A stretch of 64,000 nucleotides of DNA, taken from Leishmania infantum JPCM5 (taxonomy: Eukaryota > Euglenozoa > Kinetoplastea > Trypanosomatida > Trypanosomatidae). The stretch lies in contig NC_009412.2 in NCBI RefSeq assembly GCF_000002875.2, positions 5,001-69,000 of the forward strand, given 5' to 3'. Below are positions 17,020 to 28,143 of this stretch, piece by piece. Each line of letters begins with the position of its first letter. Positions within the stretch are counted from its first letter, which is position 1. The translations under genes were made by a program, and so were the position numbers. Below the pieces are notes generated by a model that saw only the letters and a program-made list of their open reading frames with translations, was not told the DNA's origin and did not search any database.

Positions 17020-20000
17020 ATGAGCCAATTGCCGCTCTCACCTGCAGGTAGCAGTCCTTTTCCAGGAAGCGTTAACTCATTCTCCAGCATACCTTCGTTT
17101 CATCCGGCGCCACAGCTGTTGGAGGCTGTATGTCACGCAGATGCCGCTGCAGTGCGAGGTCTTTTGGCGCCTTCTGCTCCTGGACTGTGCGCCTGGTGTG
17201 ATGCGGACCGAAACAGTCTTTTACACAGGGCTGCGGCGCTCGGCTCTCCGGATTGCCTGATAGAACTGCTCCAGTCCGAGGTGAGGTTTGTCTTTTCACA
17301 GAACTTGCAAGGAGAGACGCCGCTTCACGTTGCGGCCCGCTGCGCACGAACAATCGTTTCGGTTTTGCTTCTTGTAGCCAAGTACGGGGCCGCCTGTGTT
17401 CTCGATCGCAACGGGGATACCTTTCTACATGGCTTGCTGAGCAACGAGGGCATAAGACACCGCCAGCTACTACTGCTCATAGAGTCGCTGCTCGACCGAG
17501 CCGATGTCACGGGTCAGATTAATGTTGTCAACAATAGAGGGATGACGCTCTACGACGTAGCGTACCGATGGCACCCTGATAGTGCTCCTTTGCTGGAGGT
17601 TCTGCTACGACACGGCGCCGTTTCTGGCGCGCTGGTGTTACACGATGAGGTGGTTTCTCTTATTATCACGGAGGAGGAGCAGCGCGAGAACGTGATGGAT
17701 CGCGAACGATCTTCCTTTGCGTTGCTGCGCCATGGTGAAGGAACGGAGCGTGCACGGATTCAATGGCAGGATTATGAGCGACGGAAGCTGTTTGGAAAGG
17801 AGAGGAGAGGACGTCGTATGCGTTTCGACAAGGAGGCGTCAATGTGGACGTCGCTCATGGAGAAGGAGAAAAGATACGCGAGGCGCATCGCTGGAGACCG
17901 CGCGGCGCGAGAGTGCTGTGCCGCGGAACTGCAGCGCATCGGGAGGGGCTTTGTGGCACGAAGCACTGTCCATAGACTGTTGCTTCGGAGAAGCAAGGTG
18001 CGACTGCTTGCTGAAAAGCTAGCGGAGACCACTGCTATCGCCGCGCTGCCCATGGCGGTGGTGGTCAAGGCGGAGGAGAACGTATTCCCCGGTGCCAAAT
18101 TGGATGAGAAGCTACCGGTACTGGTGGTGCCTCCTGCTGCTCAAGAGGTCCCCTTTCGACGGCTTCCTGAGGCGGTTCTTGTGCACCTTCAGTCCATCGC
18201 GAGAACGCGTCGAGCGAGGCGCCATTATCTACACGTAAGACGCATGACGATAATTTTACAGAGGGCGTGGCGGCGCCATCAAGCCCGGGTCGCCCGCCGA
18301 CGGCAGCAGGCCGCTGACGTGCTGCTCAGTGCGGTGAAGAGATACCATTTCAGCAAAGAACGCCGCACGTTGGTGGAGAAGCTGATGCTGGTGCGCATCA
18401 AGGTGAAGTTAAGGGAGGTGACACGGCTCTTGACGGGGCTGGTGTGGCGGGAGAACTTTTGCAGCGTGTTCCGCGAAATCGTTTTCATGCAGCGGCGTCG
18501 CTTGCCGCCCCCACCGGTGCGGCTCTCGCGTTTTCGCCGGCTGCAGCTGCTTGCCGCTAGGTTCGAGCGATTCGTTTTGCTGGCACAGTTTGCGGTGAGC
18601 CTTTTTCTCCTTATTCACATGGGGTGCGCTCCGCGAACCAGTGCTTCGCAGATGCACAACAAGGTGGACATGGCCTTTCTCTGCGTGGAGCTTGTGCTCA
18701 TATGCTGTCTGCCCTTGTGCTGGTGGCGTTTATGGGACGTTGCAGTTGTCGTCACCGCGTTGATCTGCGCCGCGGCAAGCTGCTACGGCGGGTCGATTGT
18801 GATTACGCTCTTCACACTCAAGCTCCCGTTCCTGGTGCGTCAGTTTGCGCCTCGTCACTCAGGCACGTGCACATATTGTCGCACCATCGAATATTCTGTG
18901 GTGTATCTGCTGATGTTCGTGCCCTTTTCTGTTGCTGGGATCGGCTCCACCGTGCGTAGCACTACTGTAAATCATCTCCTGCTCACGAGTGGAGGCAATT
19001 GGGGTCGCGTTTTCCTGTCTCTTCTCAGCACAGTGAGCCCGCAGTACACTGTGCTACTTCTGGTCTCCCAGGGGAAATCGAGCCCGGACATCGATTCTCT
19101 GTTGCCTCTGCGTGCGCAGCAGAACCGCTACGTCCTTCCAGACGGCGATGCTCTTTTGCGGCTGCAAATACCGCTGGCGCAGCTCATCGTGTTTCGCGCT
19201 ATCATGTGTCTGTATTGGTGGTCGGCGGTGATTGTCGGTACCCACAACGCGATTCGGCATCACTACGACATTAGCGACGAGACAAAGCTCAAGTTGAACA
19301 AGCATCGCTTTCGCAACGAGGGCAAGGAGGAACTCTTTGACGCCCATCGCGCGGCCACTATCGAGGCCCTTGGGCAGCAGCTCGACGGTGTGATGTGGGA
19401 GGACGACGTGCGCGCTGCCAAGGAGGCCATCGAAGCCTCTCACTACGACCATAACACTAACATCACGGTGCACCGGTTTGTGCGCCGTGTCCAAGATACG
19501 CTAGACAGCCAGGGAGGTGCAATACTGAGTGCGCAGGCGCTGCAGCGGTCTGCGTCTGTGACGAAGCCGACGACAAAGGACGCTTCAAGGTGGGATTGCC
19601 GCAATGAGGATCCGCATTCGCGTGGCACGTACGACATTGGGGTGGTGGAGACGGCGCTTGGTAGGATTGAGCGCAAGGGTCTGGGCGAACGCTTCATCGA
19701 GCGGCAGTGGACTGGTGCGCTGCTGCGAAAGGAGATGAACTGGGTGCTCATTGGCATGCTCGTTATGGCGTCTGTCAAGCCTAACCTGTTCGCCATGGAA
19801 GCGGCGTTCAGCGCCGTCTTCGCGGTGGAGTTGGCGGTGTCGCTTTACTTTCTCCGGCTCGAGTTCATCTTCTCCCACTACGTGCGGCTCATGCTTCGAG
19901 TGTTCTGCGTTGTTATCGGATTCGTACCTCCTGGCATCCCGTTTGTCGCTTTTCGAAGCCTACGACTTGTGGAGGGGTGGTCGCTTCTGTTCAGCGTTCC

Positions 20001-23000
20001 TGGCATGGTGCGCTGGGGCATGGTGTACCTCGTCGCCTCGTTCTTGACGATATGGATGATCTCTTACGTGGCCGCCCTGCAGTTCCTCGCGGCAGCAGAG
20101 CTGCAGATGCGGCCCTCCATATGCTCAAGCAAACGCGAATGCCTAAGAGTCTCGCTACGGGAGCTTATTCTGCCCGCCTTCACGCCAGAGCATATTGATC
20201 CGGTCTCGGAGGCACCTGTGATGGCGATGCTCGTGTTTTTCACGCACTTCTGCTTTGCGCCGTTTCTGCTCGCCATCATGCTGCACCCCCTTTTGCGGCT
20301 GTCCAACTTTATTGGGCGTTTCTTGCGTCTCGTCGTGCAGAGCCTTCACAAAGACGTTCTGGACTACGTCGAAAACTACCTGGAGGGCGGGTCTTGGTAC
20401 ACCCACTGGGGTCTCAAGGCCAATGTCTCGGTGGAAGTCATTGTACGGATGAAGATGTGGTTCAATGACTTGAGTCGCCGTCGCTTCAGCGCTGTCTGGG
20501 GCTCGTCGTCCAGCAGCGTCGCGATCTCAAACCAGTACACGCTGCAGAAAATGTTCATGAAGAGATACGAGCCGGTGCCAGAGGTGGAGTGCGCGGCGCT
20601 GGCGGAGATCATCTGCCGTGGCGAGTTCGCCTCTTTGGAGGAGAACATCGCGCATGACCGCCTCAGTGGAAACCCGGTCGCACAGTTTCTGAGCCGCGTT
20701 GTCGTCCGCAACGTGTGCGTGCACTACCTCAATGTTGCTCTCACCTTTGCTTCCATAGCCTTTTTGTGGGTCGCCGACGCGTCGTTGGACCGCGGTAGCG
20801 TTCTCATCGCCTTTTCGTGTGTGGTTCACTTGTTGAGCGTTGCGGTATCGATTGTAGTTATCCCGCGTGATTCGACTGCGATCATGACGCTGGTGTCGGC
20901 GTGCGCACTTCTGTGCGCCGTCGTGCTTGTGCTCGTTCCTGATCGGCGATTCCGTAGCTACTACTGTGTGCGATTCCTCTCACTGCTACGCATTGGACAG
21001 CTGCAGGTGTTTCCTTTTCGCGAGATGAAACGGGTGGTGAAGATGTACATTGGCTCCGCAGTGAAGATTGTCTTCCCGGTCGCGGTGATGGGCGGCGCTG
21101 CGTACATGGCAGAGCTGCTTCGCGCACAGGTGTTCATGGTCCGATTCAAGCCTCTTGCGTGGATGAACATTAACTGGAGTAGCCCAGCGGAGGTGGAGGC
21201 TTTGCGGTCTAACGTGTCCTACCCGGAGTTCCTGGCAGCCGTGCCCCGCAGCCGCACTTCGTGGCCGAACGTCGAGGAGACGTCTGCCCTGTTTGTCGCG
21301 TATTTTAGCGAAGATGCGTACATCTTTTACTCCATCTACTGTTTTTGGGTACTACCTGGTATCTGCATCTCGACATGTCTGTCATATCTCTTCTGGGTAG
21401 GCACCAACCTGAGAGACACGAACCGGCTCATGGTGGACATGATTCCTCTGCTAGAGGATCCGATTACCATGTCTGGTTTCACCTGGTGTCAGTGGCTCTA
21501 CCGCTACGTAGGGAACGTGATTCTGCTTGCAAGCCTCGTGTTCGGTTGTATCTTCAGCCCCACTACCGCAGCGACCTCGGATGACCTTATCTTCTTCCTG
21601 GGGTTTGAGCTTGCTTTCACCTTCTGCGGGCTGGCCGAGGCGATCATGTTGTGCTCCTTTGCGGTGCACCGCTGCGCGCGCTCTAGCGTCAGCTGGCGGG
21701 CATGCCGGGACGACGGAAAACACACGTACGTACTTTTCGGCGACTGCGTTTTTCTGCTGTGTGAAGTGCTTCAGCTTCTCTACTACTGCGTCGCTGTGGC
21801 GCTGTGCTCGACGCTTTTGGTAGAGCGCAGTGGCTGCCTCATATCCCCAGACGAGTACGCCACCACCTTTGTCACGGTTCGCTTTGTGTTTCTGCTTCGT
21901 CTCCTGAGCCGAGAGTTTCTGCTGCCGCTGATGCGCCACTTCTTCTCGATGTCCAGCAGCGTTGCATGCATCGTAGTCTACTTTGTCGCCTGCGCCAGCG
22001 TATTGGCAGATGTGTATGCGGCGGAAACGCGCACTCGGTACACACCCGCGACGTGGTGCGCCGCGTTCGACGCCATACTCCGACTCGCCTTCACCTCTGC
22101 TATCCCTGCGAACTTTGAAGGCTACTGGCAACCTTTCAACAGCACCGCCGTCGCCTCGGTGATGAAGAACAGCTCGACCACGCTAGATGTGATCGAGGAG
22201 TGCTACACAACGTCGCGCCTGGCCTTTGTGTTGGCCGTCATTGGAAAGGCAATAATGGCCAGCATCGTAGGCCTCTTCGTCGGTTGTGTGACCACAACGG
22301 TGCGCACTGTTTTCCTGCATCTGCTGCCGGCAAAGAGCTTGTTGCTCTACCGGACGCTGTGTGGTGGTCTGAGCGAGCTGTTGAGGTTCGGCATGCAAAA
22401 TCATGACGACATGCGGCCCCAGACACGCCGCCGTATTCAGGCTCGCAAGTTCAGGCGGATGTTCATGCCCGAGGGCATCCCGTCGTGGTCGGTGCCGCAT
22501 TTGCTGGAGGAGCTGGGCATCTGCCGGCCTGCTCGGCAGCGCCGGTTCGTGTACGCCTTGATGAGGCTGTTGGAGTACATGCCGACGAGTGAGAAGCGGC
22601 AGGAGCGGGTGCGCGAGTACATGCATGTGTGGGACACCTACCGCTGTGGCGGGCCGGCTCATCTGCTCTTCTCCGAGCTCCCTATTTACCCTCCCGCCGC
22701 TGCGTCGCAGAGAAGGCCGAACCCATACTACCCTTCATCTTCACTTGTAACGATGCGGCGTGACTGCCACATTGCCCCGCTGCGGCTTGTGCAGGCACTG
22801 GCGATCTTTGAGCTTGGGTTTCCGGCAGACTCGTCTGTGGGCTCGAAGCTGTGGATGGATTTTTTCTCGGTGGTGCAAAAAATGCGCGGGGCGACGTTGC
22901 TACAGTCTCTGTGGCGGATGTACCGCGAGGAGAAGGCGTTTGACACGGACACAAGCCGCACTCCGTACGAGCGGACGCTGATCGCGCACCTGCGCCGCGG

Positions 23001-23208
23001 GTTCCGGAAGCAGAAGCTGCGGAACAATATCCGCTTTCTGAGCTTCGCTTCTTTTCAGGAGGCAATGCACTACGAACGCGAGGTGTTCAACCCAAGTACT
23101 GGCCATTTCGACTTGTTGAATCGCCTGCGTGGCCATTTCAGCGGACTAAGCGCTTCGCCGGATTTTTGGAAAACGGTTCGCGATGCTGAGAGTATGCTGG
23201 CTGCCTAA
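17020..23208 (+). CDS. Ankyrin-IQ protein with four channel-like membrane blocks
   Basis: 2062 residues, the largest gene here. Residues about 30-203 hold ankyrin-type repeats (for example GETPLHVAARC and NRGMTLYDVAYRW). A basic linker carries IQ-like motifs near 303-326 (LQRIGRGFVAR), about 391 and about 413 (LQRAWRRHQAR), which would bind calmodulin. Four blocks of hydrophobic spans follow at about 515-750, 906-1105, 1228-1470 and 1492-1770, separated by hydrophilic loops, with a roughly 290-residue cytoplasmic tail. The order recalls four-repeat voltage-gated Ca2+/Na+ channels: several helices, then a short re-entrant segment and a last helix. However, the fourth helices lack a regular arginine ladder and the pore-loop sequences are unlike the known TxExW filter. 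Ion channel is therefore an inference; ion and gating are unknown. Confidence 0.8.
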   Translation: MSQLPLSPAGSSPFPGSVNSFSSIPSFHPAPQLLEAVCHADAAAVRGLLAPSAPGLCAWCDADRNSLLHRAAALGSPDCLIELLQSEVRFVFSQNLQGETPLHVAARCARTIVSVLLLVAKYGAACVLDRNGDTFLHGLLSNEGIRHRQLLLLIESLLDRADVTGQINVVNNRGMTLYDVAYRWHPDSAPLLEVLLRHGAVSGALVLHDEVVSLIITEEEQRENVMDRERSSFALLRHGEGTERARIQWQDYERRKLFGKERRGRRMRFDKEASMWTSLMEKEKRYARRIAGDRAARECCAAELQRIGRGFVARSTVHRLLLRRSKVRLLAEKLAETTAIAALPMAVVVKAEENVFPGAKLDEKLPVLVVPPAAQEVPFRRLPEAVLVHLQSIARTRRARRHYLHVRRMTIILQRAWRRHQARVARRRQQAADVLLSAVKRYHFSKERRTLVEKLMLVRIKVKLREVTRLLTGLVWRENFCSVFREIVFMQRRRLPPPPVRLSRFRRLQLLAARFERFVLLAQFAVSLFLLIHMGCAPRTSASQMHNKVDMAFLCVELVLICCLPLCWWRLWDVAVVVTALICAAASCYGGSIVITLFTLKLPFLVRQFAPRHSGTCTYCRTIEYSVVYLLMFVPFSVAGIGSTVRSTTVNHLLLTSGGNWGRVFLSLLSTVSPQYTVLLLVSQGKSSPDIDSLLPLRAQQNRYVLPDGDALLRLQIPLAQLIVFRAIMCLYWWSAVIVGTHNAIRHHYDISDETKLKLNKHRFRNEGKEELFDAHRAATIEALGQQLDGVMWEDDVRAAKEAIEASHYDHNTNITVHRFVRRVQDTLDSQGGAILSAQALQRSASVTKPTTKDASRWDCRNEDPHSRGTYDIGVVETALGRIERKGLGERFIERQWTGALLRKEMNWVLIGMLVMASVKPNLFAMEAAFSAVFAVELAVSLYFLRLEFIFSHYVRLMLRVFCVVIGFVPPGIPFVAFRSLRLVEGWSLLFSVPGMVRWGMVYLVASFLTIWMISYVAALQFLAAAELQMRPSICSSKRECLRVSLRELILPAFTPEHIDPVSEAPVMAMLVFFTHFCFAPFLLAIMLHPLLRLSNFIGRFLRLVVQSLHKDVLDYVENYLEGGSWYTHWGLKANVSVEVIVRMKMWFNDLSRRRFSAVWGSSSSSVAISNQYTLQKMFMKRYEPVPEVECAALAEIICRGEFASLEENIAHDRLSGNPVAQFLSRVVVRNVCVHYLNVALTFASIAFLWVADASLDRGSVLIAFSCVVHLLSVAVSIVVIPRDSTAIMTLVSACALLCAVVLVLVPDRRFRSYYCVRFLSLLRIGQLQVFPFREMKRVVKMYIGSAVKIVFPVAVMGGAAYMAELLRAQVFMVRFKPLAWMNINWSSPAEVEALRSNVSYPEFLAAVPRSRTSWPNVEETSALFVAYFSEDAYIFYSIYCFWVLPGICISTCLSYLFWVGTNLRDTNRLMVDMIPLLEDPITMSGFTWCQWLYRYVGNVILLASLVFGCIFSPTTAATSDDLIFFLGFELAFTFCGLAEAIMLCSFAVHRCARSSVSWRACRDDGKHTYVLFGDCVFLLCEVLQLLYYCVAVALCSTLLVERSGCLISPDEYATTFVTVRFVFLLRLLSREFLLPLMRHFFSMSSSVACIVVYFVACASVLADVYAAETRTRYTPATWCAAFDAILRLAFTSAIPANFEGYWQPFNSTAVASVMKNSSTTLDVIEECYTTSRLAFVLAVIGKAIMASIVGLFVGCVTTTVRTVFLHLLPAKSLLLYRTLCGGLSELLRFGMQNHDDMRPQTRRRIQARKFRRMFMPEGIPSWSVPHLLEELGICRPARQRRFVYALMRLLEYMPTSEKRQERVREYMHVWDTYRCGGPAHLLFSELPIYPPAAASQRRPNPYYPSSSLVTMRRDCHIAPLRLVQALAIFELGFPADSSVGSKLWMDFFSVVQKMRGATLLQSLWRMYREEKAFDTDTSRTPYERTLIAHLRRGFRKQKLRNNIRFLSFASFQEAMHYEREVFNPSTGHFDLLNRLRGHFSGLSASPDFWKTVRDAESMLAA

Positions 23209-24155: not shown

Positions 24156-24862
24156 AAGATGCACCGCGGTGGAATCGACTGCGGTGATGTGAATAGCATG
24201 ATATCAGCAGTGCTGTTTGTCTGACATTGGCGTGAGGTGCAGCACTCCGCACTTCGGCATCTGCGCTGACACTCTTGTGGTGATCGGGTGCTCTGATGTT
24301 GCTGATTTGAACAGGTGTTTCTTCAACGCCAACGGGTCGGAGGCCCTTCTATGCGGCAACGCCGCGCGCTGTGTGAATGAGTAGCTCCACAGCTTAGCCG
24401 TCGGACAGTTCATGTATAGCTCTTTAGACATTGCATGGCGTGTGGCAGCTCGACTTGCACGTTTCCAACGGCCTTGTTCACCTTGTAATGGCCGAGATGG
24501 GGATACTAACTGTGGAAAGTGAACAGCTGACCGTGACGTACGGCTCTCTCCCCTTTGCGTGTGTCTCGGTATCGATGTGGAATCCGTATTTGGTGGTGTA
24601 CGCCACGGGTGCGAGCGCGGTTGAACTTGAACGGGCAGGCTCGCTGATCGACTGGGGCCCGGTGATTTGTGACCACACGAACGTGATTTTCGCACATATC
24701 GATGATGCGGAGGAGATTTACATGTGCAGCTGGGGGTTCGGCTCTGACACCACGCAAGTCTGCAGTTCAAGGCACATGGTCTCGCCTCGCGCGATGTACT
24801 TGTCTGGATAAACTGTGACAGTTTCGACGTTTGGTGTGTGCCTGAGGGGTCGGCCGGAATAA
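24156..24862 (+). pseudogene. dapF: Decayed diaminopimelate epimerase (dapF) pseudogene
   Basis: Diaminopimelate epimerase converts LL- to meso-diaminopimelate in the bacterial-type lysine pathway. Its motifs appear here in order but in three frames. A weak N-terminal match (KMHRGG.D) starts at 24156. A clear block at 24238-24384 carries HFGICADTLVVIG and NGSEALLCGNAARC, including the first catalytic cysteine (codon 24352-24354), and ends in TAG. A third frame from about 24431 carries SMWNPYLVV, the equivalents of the ERGAGET loop (WGFGSDT) and the second cysteine region (codon 24761-24763), then stops at 24812. Remnants may continue to 24862. About 700 bp against some 820 bp for an intact gene. 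At least two frameshifts and several stops make it non-functional. The codons remain GC3-rich, so the decay looks fairly recent. Confidence 0.85.
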
Positions 24863-26109
24863 AAAGATGCACAATGAATGTGCAGGTGGGCATTCGCCTC
24901 TTGCAAGTTGGCGCCGGTGCATTTTCTCGGCGCATGTTGCGGCGCTCTCAGCGACGCTCGCACAGCCGGCTGGTTACTGCTTGCTGACCCTTCCCGTTCT
25001 CCATGAGTGTTTTTTTTCTTTCCTGATTGTTTGTTTTTATCTACACTCCCGTGGCTTTATCGACCACCAGCTTTCACCTGCAGCACCAGAGCGTTGATTT
25101 CAAGCGCCATTTTTTGTACATGTAAAGGCTGATACACTGCTGCGGGCGAAACCAGATCCCGAATGGCGCGTTGATCATACCGTCAGCGTTTCTGTGGAGA
25201 TGTAAATGTGCGAAAGCGAACACGATGTGCGGCTCTTGAGCGCCATGGGCCGGTGACACTTGTGAGACCACCAAGGATGCTTCGAGGAACCGGCGTGGAG
25301 GCCGCAATGTGCCAAATTCCACTGCATAGATCGGCAACTGATCAAGGGCTGTTTGAAGCTTGTGGAACTTCGCATCTGTCATCTTGTCCTTCCCTTTTCT
25401 CTCTGTGGATGGACGCCTGTTCCTGCCTGTTTCACATTATGGCCTGCTCTTCTTCCTCACTCTTTCCTACACGCAAGTGCTCAAGCACTCGCTGCAGCGG
25501 CAAGAAGAGACAATCCACAGAAATTTCATCGCTTGCGCTCTTCGTAAACTATCGTGCTGTAACGTCAACAGGGGCCAGATTTCTCTACTGAAGATGCGTG
25601 TTGTGTGTTTTGCAGGTCTCTTTTTTTGGTGCATCTTTTTTGCCACGATCTCGAAATTTTTCCATCGTGCGTGCCCGCAGTCGCAACTTTACCGTAGCTG
25701 CGCTGCTGCCGGCTGCCCGTTTGCCCTTTCTTTTCCGACTTCCCACAGAACAAGAGTAATTTACGATCTTTCTGACCAGCTAGCTAGCCGTCTTGCGATT
25801 GTGGCACCGACCACGCACACCCACGGACACTGACACATGTACGCTGAGTGCCGCAGAAGATCCCTCTCTCTTTCTTGCGCGTTTCTTGTTCGTGGTCTTG
25901 CGCCTTTACCGGGTCTGTGAGGGTGTCTACTTGTTTCTTTTCCTCGCTTCGTTTCTCTCTCCTCTTCCGCTGTCCCGTCGCCCCTCTCAGCAATCGCTGA
26001 CAAGGCTGTTGTGTCTCCTCCCAGGAGTTTTCGGCTCATTGCACATTCGCGACCGTTTCTTCTATTTTAGTTTCCGTTTACTTTGTTTCATTGCCCTGGG
26101 GATTCAGCT
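24863..26109. other. Intergenic/UTR before the adenylate cyclase
   Basis: No + strand gene supported. A minus-strand frame at 25074-25382 has coding-like composition (see findings). The last 300 bases are strongly pyrimidine-rich and end with the acceptor AG at 26069-26070. Confidence 0.5.
26069..26070 (+). promoter_or_regulatory. Predicted trans-splice acceptor AG for adenylate cyclase
   Basis: AG at the end of a T-rich tract (TTTCTTCTATTTTAG). It is 39 bases before the ATG at 26110. The longer open frame begins with a TTG at 26083. Confidence 0.55.
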
Positions 26110-28143
26110 ATGGGAGCTGGTGCCTCTCGCCAACGGCGCTGGAAGATAAAGTCCTCCATAGGGAACGCCGATCCGTGCTCTACGTCCCCGCCCGTCGAGG
26201 TCTTGACCGCGTGTGAGAGCTGTGAGAGTTTGAGGCAGAATGTGAGTGCCGCTTCGATTGGCGATGCCAAGCTAAACTCGCGCAGGCGGGAGATGGACTG
26301 TTGGAACACGCGAAGGGACTCTAAGGAGTTCCAACATGAAGTAGTCGAGACGGACAGCCTACAGGCCAACTGCGGAGCGCCGAATGAGCAGGCTTTTCAC
26401 GATACGCTTGTGAGTGCCGCCCACCAGTTGCGGGCCCGCCAGCGCGATACGAATGTGAGCATCTCGAAGGCGGAGATGGAGGGCCTGGTAGTTCTCACGC
26501 GCGAGCTGGAGAACCTCAAGCAGATGATGAAGCGTTCGGAGTTCACGGTGGAGGGAACGTGGAGGATCTTAGAGGATGAGGGAATGGTGGAGCGCTTTGG
26601 CCAGCAGTTGTACGATGAGCTGCTCACCCGAAATCCGCGTCTGCGCGTCTACTTTCACGGCGTCGACATCAAAGAGCAGTCCAAGTCCTTGCTGCGCATG
26701 GTCGGTACAGCGGTGCACTTCTACCAGAAGCCGCAGTTGACAGTGGACATGTTCACCAAGGCTGGCGCAAGGCACCGTGGCTACGGCGTGAACGCAGAGG
26801 TCTTCGTGGAAATGAGCAACGCCTTCATGCGGGTATTCTCGAAATTTGTCGGCACAGACGTCTTTCAGGCGGCCGAAGAGGAGTGGCGAAAGTTCTGGAA
26901 GTACGTTCTAGATCTGCTCGTGCACGGAAGCGAGAGCCCGGAGGGGGAGCGGTATGGAAAGGTGTACGAAGAGAAGATGCTCAAAAAGATACAGTCCGAT
27001 TTCAAGCTCATCATGGAGCGGCAAAACAGATGCGACCTGCGGCGCCAATTTGTGAGCGTGATGTACAGTAAAGCCATGGAGATGCACGAGGAGTTGTCAA
27101 AGTTCGAAGCACTAAAGGATCTGCGTGCTAGTGCACGCGTCTTGCAGTCATACATCGACGTAATTAACAACATCCATGACAAGAAGCTTTTGGACGAGTA
27201 CATGCGCGAGCTTGGCGGGCGCCACACAGCCTACAACGTGACGGTGGAGAACCTACACGCCTTTACCGAGCCGTTCCTCTTCACCTGCCGCCACTTTTTG
27301 GAGGATGAGTGGAATATCGCGGTTGAGTCGCGTTTGCTGTGGCTGTTTGAGTACATGATCGACGGCATTTCGGCCGGTATGGTGAGCGACATCAACAGCA
27401 TCGTAAACTTGCGCGCTCCCAGCAACAGCGTTTCTTTTGGGCTGATTTTCACCGATATTGAGGCAAGTACAAGGCTGTGGAGCAAGGACTCGCAGTCGAT
27501 GAGCCTTGCGGTGAAGAGCCATCACGCCATGATCCGGCGCCTTATCGCTGACTACGGCGCTTATGAGGTCAAGACGGTCGGCGACTCCTTCATCATCGCC
27601 ACCAAGGATGTACTGGTGGCGGTGAAGCTGTCGCTGTCCATTCAGCTAGAGCTGATGCGGATGGCGCCGATTGCTCCAGGATTTGCGATGGTTGACAGTT
27701 CCGAGGGCCACGGTGATCCGCAGGCCTGGGATGACCGCACGCTGCGCGTGCGGATCGGCGTAGAGCACTGCACGGATGCCACGGCCACTTATGACACCAT
27801 TCACCGGCGCTACGATTACTACGGGGCTAGCGTAAATCGCTGCGCCCGAATCGAGTCTGCAGCGTGTGGAGGGCAGATATTACTCTCTCGTGAGAGTTTT
27901 GAGCATCTCAAGTCCATCCCCGAGTTCCATGACGAGCCTTGCCCCTACCTCTTCCGCAGCGTTGAGATCGCCACTCCACCCCCAAAGGAGGATAGCCGTG
28001 GTTTGGACCACTTCGTGGTAGTGAGCGATGTCGGCCTGGCGTCCTTCAAAGGCATAGCTGAGCCAGTGCACCTTGTCTCGTTGGTGCCGCGCTGTCTCGC
28101 TGGGCGGCAGTTTACGGAAAAGTTTACCAAAGTAGCGGAATAA
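26110..28143 (+). CDS. HemAC: Globin-coupled (haem-containing) soluble adenylate cyclase
   Basis: 677 residues. The N-terminus MGAGAS fits an N-myristoylation signal. Residues about 145-272 form a globin fold with the proximal histidine H222 in ARHRGYGV. Residues about 305-425 look like a second globin fold, with H372 in GGRHTAYNV. The C-terminal class III cyclase domain (about 440-660) keeps both metal-binding aspartates (D449 in FTDIEAS, D492 in KTVGDSF), the lysine expected for adenine recognition (K488) and the catalytic N576/R580 pair (SVNRCARIES). It should make cAMP from ATP in response to oxygen bound by haem. This matches HemAC described from L. major, an oxygen-sensing cyclase important in hypoxia. 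No transmembrane span, unlike the receptor-type cyclases of these parasites. Confidence 0.94.
   Translation: MGAGASRQRRWKIKSSIGNADPCSTSPPVEVLTACESCESLRQNVSAASIGDAKLNSRRREMDCWNTRRDSKEFQHEVVETDSLQANCGAPNEQAFHDTLVSAAHQLRARQRDTNVSISKAEMEGLVVLTRELENLKQMMKRSEFTVEGTWRILEDEGMVERFGQQLYDELLTRNPRLRVYFHGVDIKEQSKSLLRMVGTAVHFYQKPQLTVDMFTKAGARHRGYGVNAEVFVEMSNAFMRVFSKFVGTDVFQAAEEEWRKFWKYVLDLLVHGSESPEGERYGKVYEEKMLKKIQSDFKLIMERQNRCDLRRQFVSVMYSKAMEMHEELSKFEALKDLRASARVLQSYIDVINNIHDKKLLDEYMRELGGRHTAYNVTVENLHAFTEPFLFTCRHFLEDEWNIAVESRLLWLFEYMIDGISAGMVSDINSIVNLRAPSNSVSFGLIFTDIEASTRLWSKDSQSMSLAVKSHHAMIRRLIADYGAYEVKTVGDSFIIATKDVLVAVKLSLSIQLELMRMAPIAPGFAMVDSSEGHGDPQAWDDRTLRVRIGVEHCTDATATYDTIHRRYDYYGASVNRCARIESAACGGQILLSRESFEHLKSIPEFHDEPCPYLFRSVEIATPPPKEDSRGLDHFVVVSDVGLASFKGIAEPVHLVSLVPRCLAGRQFTEKFTKVAE

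Follow-up and report, generated by a model that had tools for sequence, protein, structure and literature searches.

The question raised by this locus is whether a spacer in a Leishmania genome holds the remains of a gene for diaminopimelate epimerase (DapF), and what kind of bacterium such a gene would have come from. The window, meaning the whole stretch of DNA that was analysed, is 64 kb long and covers bases 5001-69000 of contig 28. Within it a gap of 2.9 kb separates an ankyrin/IQ gene from a globin-adenylate cyclase gene, both on the + strand (Table 1); we take the latter to be HemAC-like. A reading made from the letters alone, here called the sequence-only reading, had placed a decayed dapF in this gap, with its motifs in the right order on three consecutive frames.

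A colinear DapF match in the gap

A DapF profile was aligned to the DNA with frame changes permitted at a cost. The profile comprised 74 sequences, 69 from Bacteroidota, Bacillota and Planctomycetota draws (length-filtered) and five from Pseudomonadota. One colinear match was obtained on the + strand, covering model positions 8-250 of 281 and scoring 138.4 bits. The reverse strand of the target served as a control, as did 102 stretches of 1200 bases from elsewhere in the window, taken from either strand; against the same profile these 103 gave a mean of 37.5 bits (sd 6.7) and a maximum of 56.9, and the decayed gene is thereby borne out. The motifs stand at the positions that had been given for them and are colinear in the profile alignment. 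Three consecutive frames are seen from 24156 to 24763; beyond that point the path is uncertain, with more frequent shifts of frame. The 3' end of the relic is not fixed, lying at 24850 or somewhat further.

Table 1. Features of the relic and its neighbours (positions in the window)
Feature	Position	Strand	Basis
Upstream neighbour, 2062-aa open frame, ankyrin repeats and IQ motif	17020..23208	+	domain matches
Whole dapF pseudogene, 3' boundary not fixed	24156..24850	+	frameshift-aware DapF profile alignment, 138.4 bits
KMH	24156-24164	+	motif position
N-terminal piece, MHRGGID...	24159..24221	+	colinear in profile alignment and E. coli DapF comparison
Piece with HFGICAD and NANGSEALLCGNAARC, then in-frame stop	24226..24381	+	TIGR00652 E 9.7e-10, PF01678 E 7.1e-5
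HFGICAD	24250-24270	+	motif position
ANGSEALL	24328-24351	+	motif position
CGNAARC	24352-24372	+	motif position
Piece with SMWNPY and second cysteine region, then in-frame stop	24434..24808	+	TIGR00652 E 7.1e-8
SMWNPY	24572-24589	+	motif position
DTTQVC	24746-24763	+	motif position
Downstream neighbour, open frame of 677 aa, globin domain and adenylate/guanylate cyclase domain	26110..28143	+	domain matches

Membership of the family was tested by the profile and by both cysteines. In addition to the profile match, the two cysteine codons that had been described as surviving are confirmed as TGC (24352-24354 and 24761-24763) and align with two cysteines of E. coli DapF, which are catalytic; by these tests the relic is assigned to DapF. 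The stop-free pieces all score under the curated whole-protein cut-offs of TIGR00652 and PF01678, which would be in keeping with a spacer resembling DapF by chance. PF01678 gave no match for the piece at 24434-24808, and the short N- and C-terminal pieces, searched alone against Pfam and NCBIfam, gave no HMM match. Chance is nevertheless scarcely credible, given 138 bits against at most 57 in the controls and given the outcome of a PDB search with the read-through of the relic (X at the breaks). All 16 distinct sequences found at E <= 10 (best E 6.1e-17) are DapF or a relative of it, 15 being named diaminopimelate epimerase and the remaining one O-ureido-serine racemase, a DapF relative.

When the assembly (32,068,093 bases in 75 contigs) was searched with TIGR00652, a match was found at one place only, on contig 28, in two pieces at 24241-24387 (E 9.2e-8) and 24416-24769 (E 4.0e-7), each of which reads through one TAG. 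No second DapF copy was found by this search of the 32-Mb assembly. The assembly also contains a single Piwi match, on contig 21, and we assume that the absence of a second, AGO1-like match speaks against the subgenus Viannia. Contig numbers for the presumed ornithine decarboxylase (12), the Piwi-like gene (21) and the globin-cyclase gene (28) are in keeping with the chromosomes that carry these genes in Leishmania.

An antisense open frame with an ATG start (243 aa, 24204-24935 on the - strand) overlaps the relic, and automatic annotation could call it a gene. It has no Pfam or NCBIfam match, and we rejected it as a gene; it is probably a shadow of the former coding frame.

Lesions and codon footprint

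That frameshifts and stops break the gene had also been claimed, and on the best path three in-frame stops (24382, 24425 and 24809) and five frame changes are located. The frame changes fall near 24216, near 24397 and, for the last three, between 24764 and 24790. Break points vary with the scoring, chiefly past 24763, and the last three frame changes are scoring-dependent. With these lesions the relic lacks what DapF has, an open frame of roughly 270 codons. Residues are altered as well. DapF binds its substrate through GND and ERG residues, and in the alignment with E. coli DapF the relic is without both conserved sets, GND reading GID (I for N) and the ER of YERG reading GF, i.e. GFG for ERG. 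The relic's N-terminus reads MHRGGID..., to be set beside MHGAGNDY in Bacteroidales DapF.

Stops, frame changes and replaced conserved residues together argue for a true pseudogene. Judged on its sequence, the relic is a pseudogene of the DapF family and not a working member, from which no epimerase would be made today. If the breaks were instead assembly or sequencing errors in an intact gene, three stops along the best path, and five frame changes with them, would all have to have arisen in this way within 0.7 kb, and the conserved residues are replaced at sites away from the breaks; errors in a working gene are therefore very unlikely. The reading had further held that a bacterial-type gene was gained by transfer and then lost, and the profile score, the motif order and the lesions support this. 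Leaving the identity of the donor aside, the relic is almost certainly what is left of a bacterial-type diaminopimelate epimerase gene, a pseudogene of bacterial descent.

Over the 174 codons of the two longest pieces that stay in frame, GC1/GC2/GC3 is 0.546/0.448/0.678, and eight genes in the window have 0.598/0.420/0.699. Among 2000 overlapping samples of the same length as these pieces, taken from 7.4 kb of spacer, none had a GC3-GC2 gap as large as theirs. On this composition the relic would formerly have served as a gene, with a codon trace that mutation has not yet wiped out. The pattern suggests, and does not prove, adaptation to host codon use, because GC3 in the 17 closest Bacteroidota dapF genes (among the matches listed) spreads from 0.262 to 0.825, with a median of 0.537. 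A sequence that is still recognisable, and that sits between two + strand genes 2.9 kb apart, might also be expected if the relic had been re-used, e.g. inside the 3' UTR of the upstream gene, and kept for regulation. We consider such re-use improbable, since the remaining signal is that of the DapF protein and a coding history accounts for the codon pattern.

Origin of the gene

Bacterial and archaeal genomes were searched for a single peptide pattern, which had been derived in part from the relic. At least 569 of 594 matches were confirmed, and the best 80 loci were retained by likeness to the relic. Ranks 1-17 of these are all titled Bacteroidota, and rank 18 is a Clostridia bacterium. In a tree of 96 rows the relic groups within a set of 18, of which 17 are Bacteroidota (SH-aLRT 99). 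A set of the same make-up is recovered with 62 rows (bootstrap/SH-aLRT 100/99), after omission of one row from Bacillota and 33 from Bacteroidota, the latter almost all of the far type described below. Of the 17 Bacteroidota rows beside the relic, 14 were selected by likeness to it, one (L087) is from the same genome as a locus so selected, and only L168 and L169 are independent. A tree had been proposed as the means of finding the donor, and it delivers the Bacteroidota set but no supported place once likeness-selected rows are left out: with 35 rows, lacking the selected Bacteroidota and six selected Bacillota, no well-supported set contains the relic. Its branch in that tree is very long, and the three nearest rows are Bacteroidota.

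The relic was also compared singly with 103 drawn sequences. The best scores were those of L087 (129.0), L167 (115.4) and L169 (110.8), all Bacteroidota, followed by the Bacillota sequence L086 (98.6, from a selected genome too) and the Planctomycetota sequence L150 (95.3). L167 and L169, which both belong to the draw from the order Bacteroidales, hold the two best scores among the independently drawn sequences. Median scores were 28.9 for the Bacteroidota phylum draw, 34.5 for the order draw, 75.9 for Bacillota and 68.9 for Planctomycetota, the Bacteroidota medians being low because most Bacteroidota have the far DapF type. Two types of DapF are indeed seen in the Bacteroidota draws (L087-L116 and L160-L188), a minority type near that of Bacillota and the other far from it; the far type scores low against E. 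coli DapF as well as against the relic.

Two motifs, PHxG and IGxS, picked once the alignment had been inspected, occur together in 12 of the best 80 scan loci, all 12 titled Bacteroidota, and nine of the 80 have GNA[AS]RC in addition. In the draws both are present in 1/30 of the Bacteroidota phylum sequences (L087), 0/30 Bacillota, 0/14 Planctomycetota and 0/29 of the Bacteroidales order sequences. Bacteroidales DapF reaches 38-39% identity with the relic (L006, among the matches listed). It differs from the relic in being encoded by open bacterial reading frames where the relic is broken, and PHxG is missing in many of its sequences, as in the whole order draw.

A search of a protein collection with the read-through gave only one match (E 2e-3), nearest to DapF of Rhizomicrobium, an alphaproteobacterium, and no trypanosomatid DapF. 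When the search was repeated with that protein as seed, the named entries in the best 120 of 8000 were bacterial DapF, many from Rhizomicrobium.

The same pseudogene could have come from a donor in Bacillota or another phylum. The top PDB match, 2otn, is presumably from Bacillus, the median scores favour Bacillota, and the place of the relic is open in the tree without selected rows. Such a donor is nonetheless unlikely in view of the best 80 loci of the genome scan, the 96- and 62-row trees, the PHxG/IGxS motifs and the top independently drawn scores. Published work points the same way, as the available excerpt of PMC3846528 reports that dapF of Herpetomonas muscarum clusters with Bacteroidetes at a bootstrap of 99. 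From scan, trees, motifs and that published tree, we regard a donor of the Bacteroidales kind as the most likely and as probable, with support less firm than that for pseudogene status.

Other steps of the diaminopimelate pathway

With the model for diaminopimelate decarboxylase (TIGR01048) nothing above cut-off was found in the whole assembly. Below cut-off it matched two pieces, both in one open frame of contig 12 that we take to be ornithine decarboxylase, and with this frame as the sole candidate a relic of the decarboxylase was rejected. The annotation of L. infantum LinJ.31.2060 as succinyl-diaminopimelate desuccinylase-like may mislead. In the excerpt of PMC4862625, a succinyl-diaminopimelate desuccinylase-like gene of L. 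infantum is read as lysine synthesis, although Leishmania has no complete pathway known. The leishmaniae are without annotated lysine biosynthesis genes in KEGG, according to the excerpt of PMC3846528.

Relation to published trypanosomatid dapF

A dapF pseudogene in Leishmania is in substance already known. According to the excerpt of PMC6787982 (2019), easily identifiable diaminopimelate epimerase pseudogenes occur in most Leishmania (Leishmania) genomes, remnants are confined to that subgenus, and a gain of dapF in the ancestor of Leishmaniinae was already suggested. Those pseudogenes are of the same gene family as the relic, by all signs from its genus, and likewise broken down to pseudogenes. 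However, the statement, as it stands in that excerpt, comes without locus, lesions or donor. What is added is the anatomy of the locus, its lesions, the surviving codon pattern and the Bacteroidales signature.

Two chromosome accessions may bear on the position of the relic on contig 28, FR796460 of L. infantum and FR799615 of L. donovani, both of which are presumably chromosome 28. These were listed with dapF of C. mellificae as tblastx matches, and chromosomes of L. major, L. braziliensis and L. mexicana were aligned with Crithidia dapF as well (PMC3990616, 2014, in excerpt). The L. braziliensis alignment sits uneasily with the restriction to the subgenus Leishmania in the PMC6787982 excerpt, and a Viannia relic may have been overlooked.

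Intact dapF in nuclear genomes of some trypanosomatids, mentioned in the sequence-only reading, is on record for Herpetomonas muscarum (PMC3846528) and for Crithidia fasciculata and Leptomonas pyrrhocoris, with loss in L. seymouri (PMC4810370), as far as the excerpts of these papers go. Compared through such published descriptions, the dapF of C. fasciculata, L. pyrrhocoris, C. mellificae and H. muscarum (PMC4810370, PMC3990616, PMC3846528) is likewise nuclear and of bacterial descent, but is reported as a gene where the relic is broken. Enzymes that metabolise diaminopimelate (DAP) are described as present in Novymonas (PMC8406214), and Endotrypanum and Porcisia as lacking both DAP genes (PMC8004069), each in the available excerpt. 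In that of PMC4552786, DAP enzymes are regarded as recent acquisitions that only Crithidia and Leptomonas share, a view against which a dapF relic in Leishmania speaks.

Proposed history and implications

An ancestor would have acquired dapF from a bacterial donor, the most likely one being of the Bacteroidales kind. The acquired DapF would have run as a host gene, turning LL-DAP into meso-DAP, and a decarboxylase could then have made lysine out of scavenged bacterial DAP. Once an animal host supplied lysine, dapF may have been lost. We lean slightly towards one old Bacteroidales-like transfer, predating the split of Leishmania and Herpetomonas, as the common source of the relic and of the live dapF of Crithidia, Leptomonas and Herpetomonas. 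New in such a history would be a single origin from Bacteroidales and the inclusion of Herpetomonas, and it would contradict the account in the PMC4552786 excerpt.

The locus is a clear fossil, in a Leishmania genome, of a bacterial-type enzyme gene. Its position, Bacteroidales signature and codon pattern make the timing and the donor easy to test. If the relic is orthologous to dapF of the insect-only relatives, the gain of dapF predates the split of those lines. If a single old transfer is true, insect trypanosomatids would long have been fitted for turning DAP of bacterial cell walls into lysine, and the Leishmania relic would be the trace of a diet given up with the move to two hosts.
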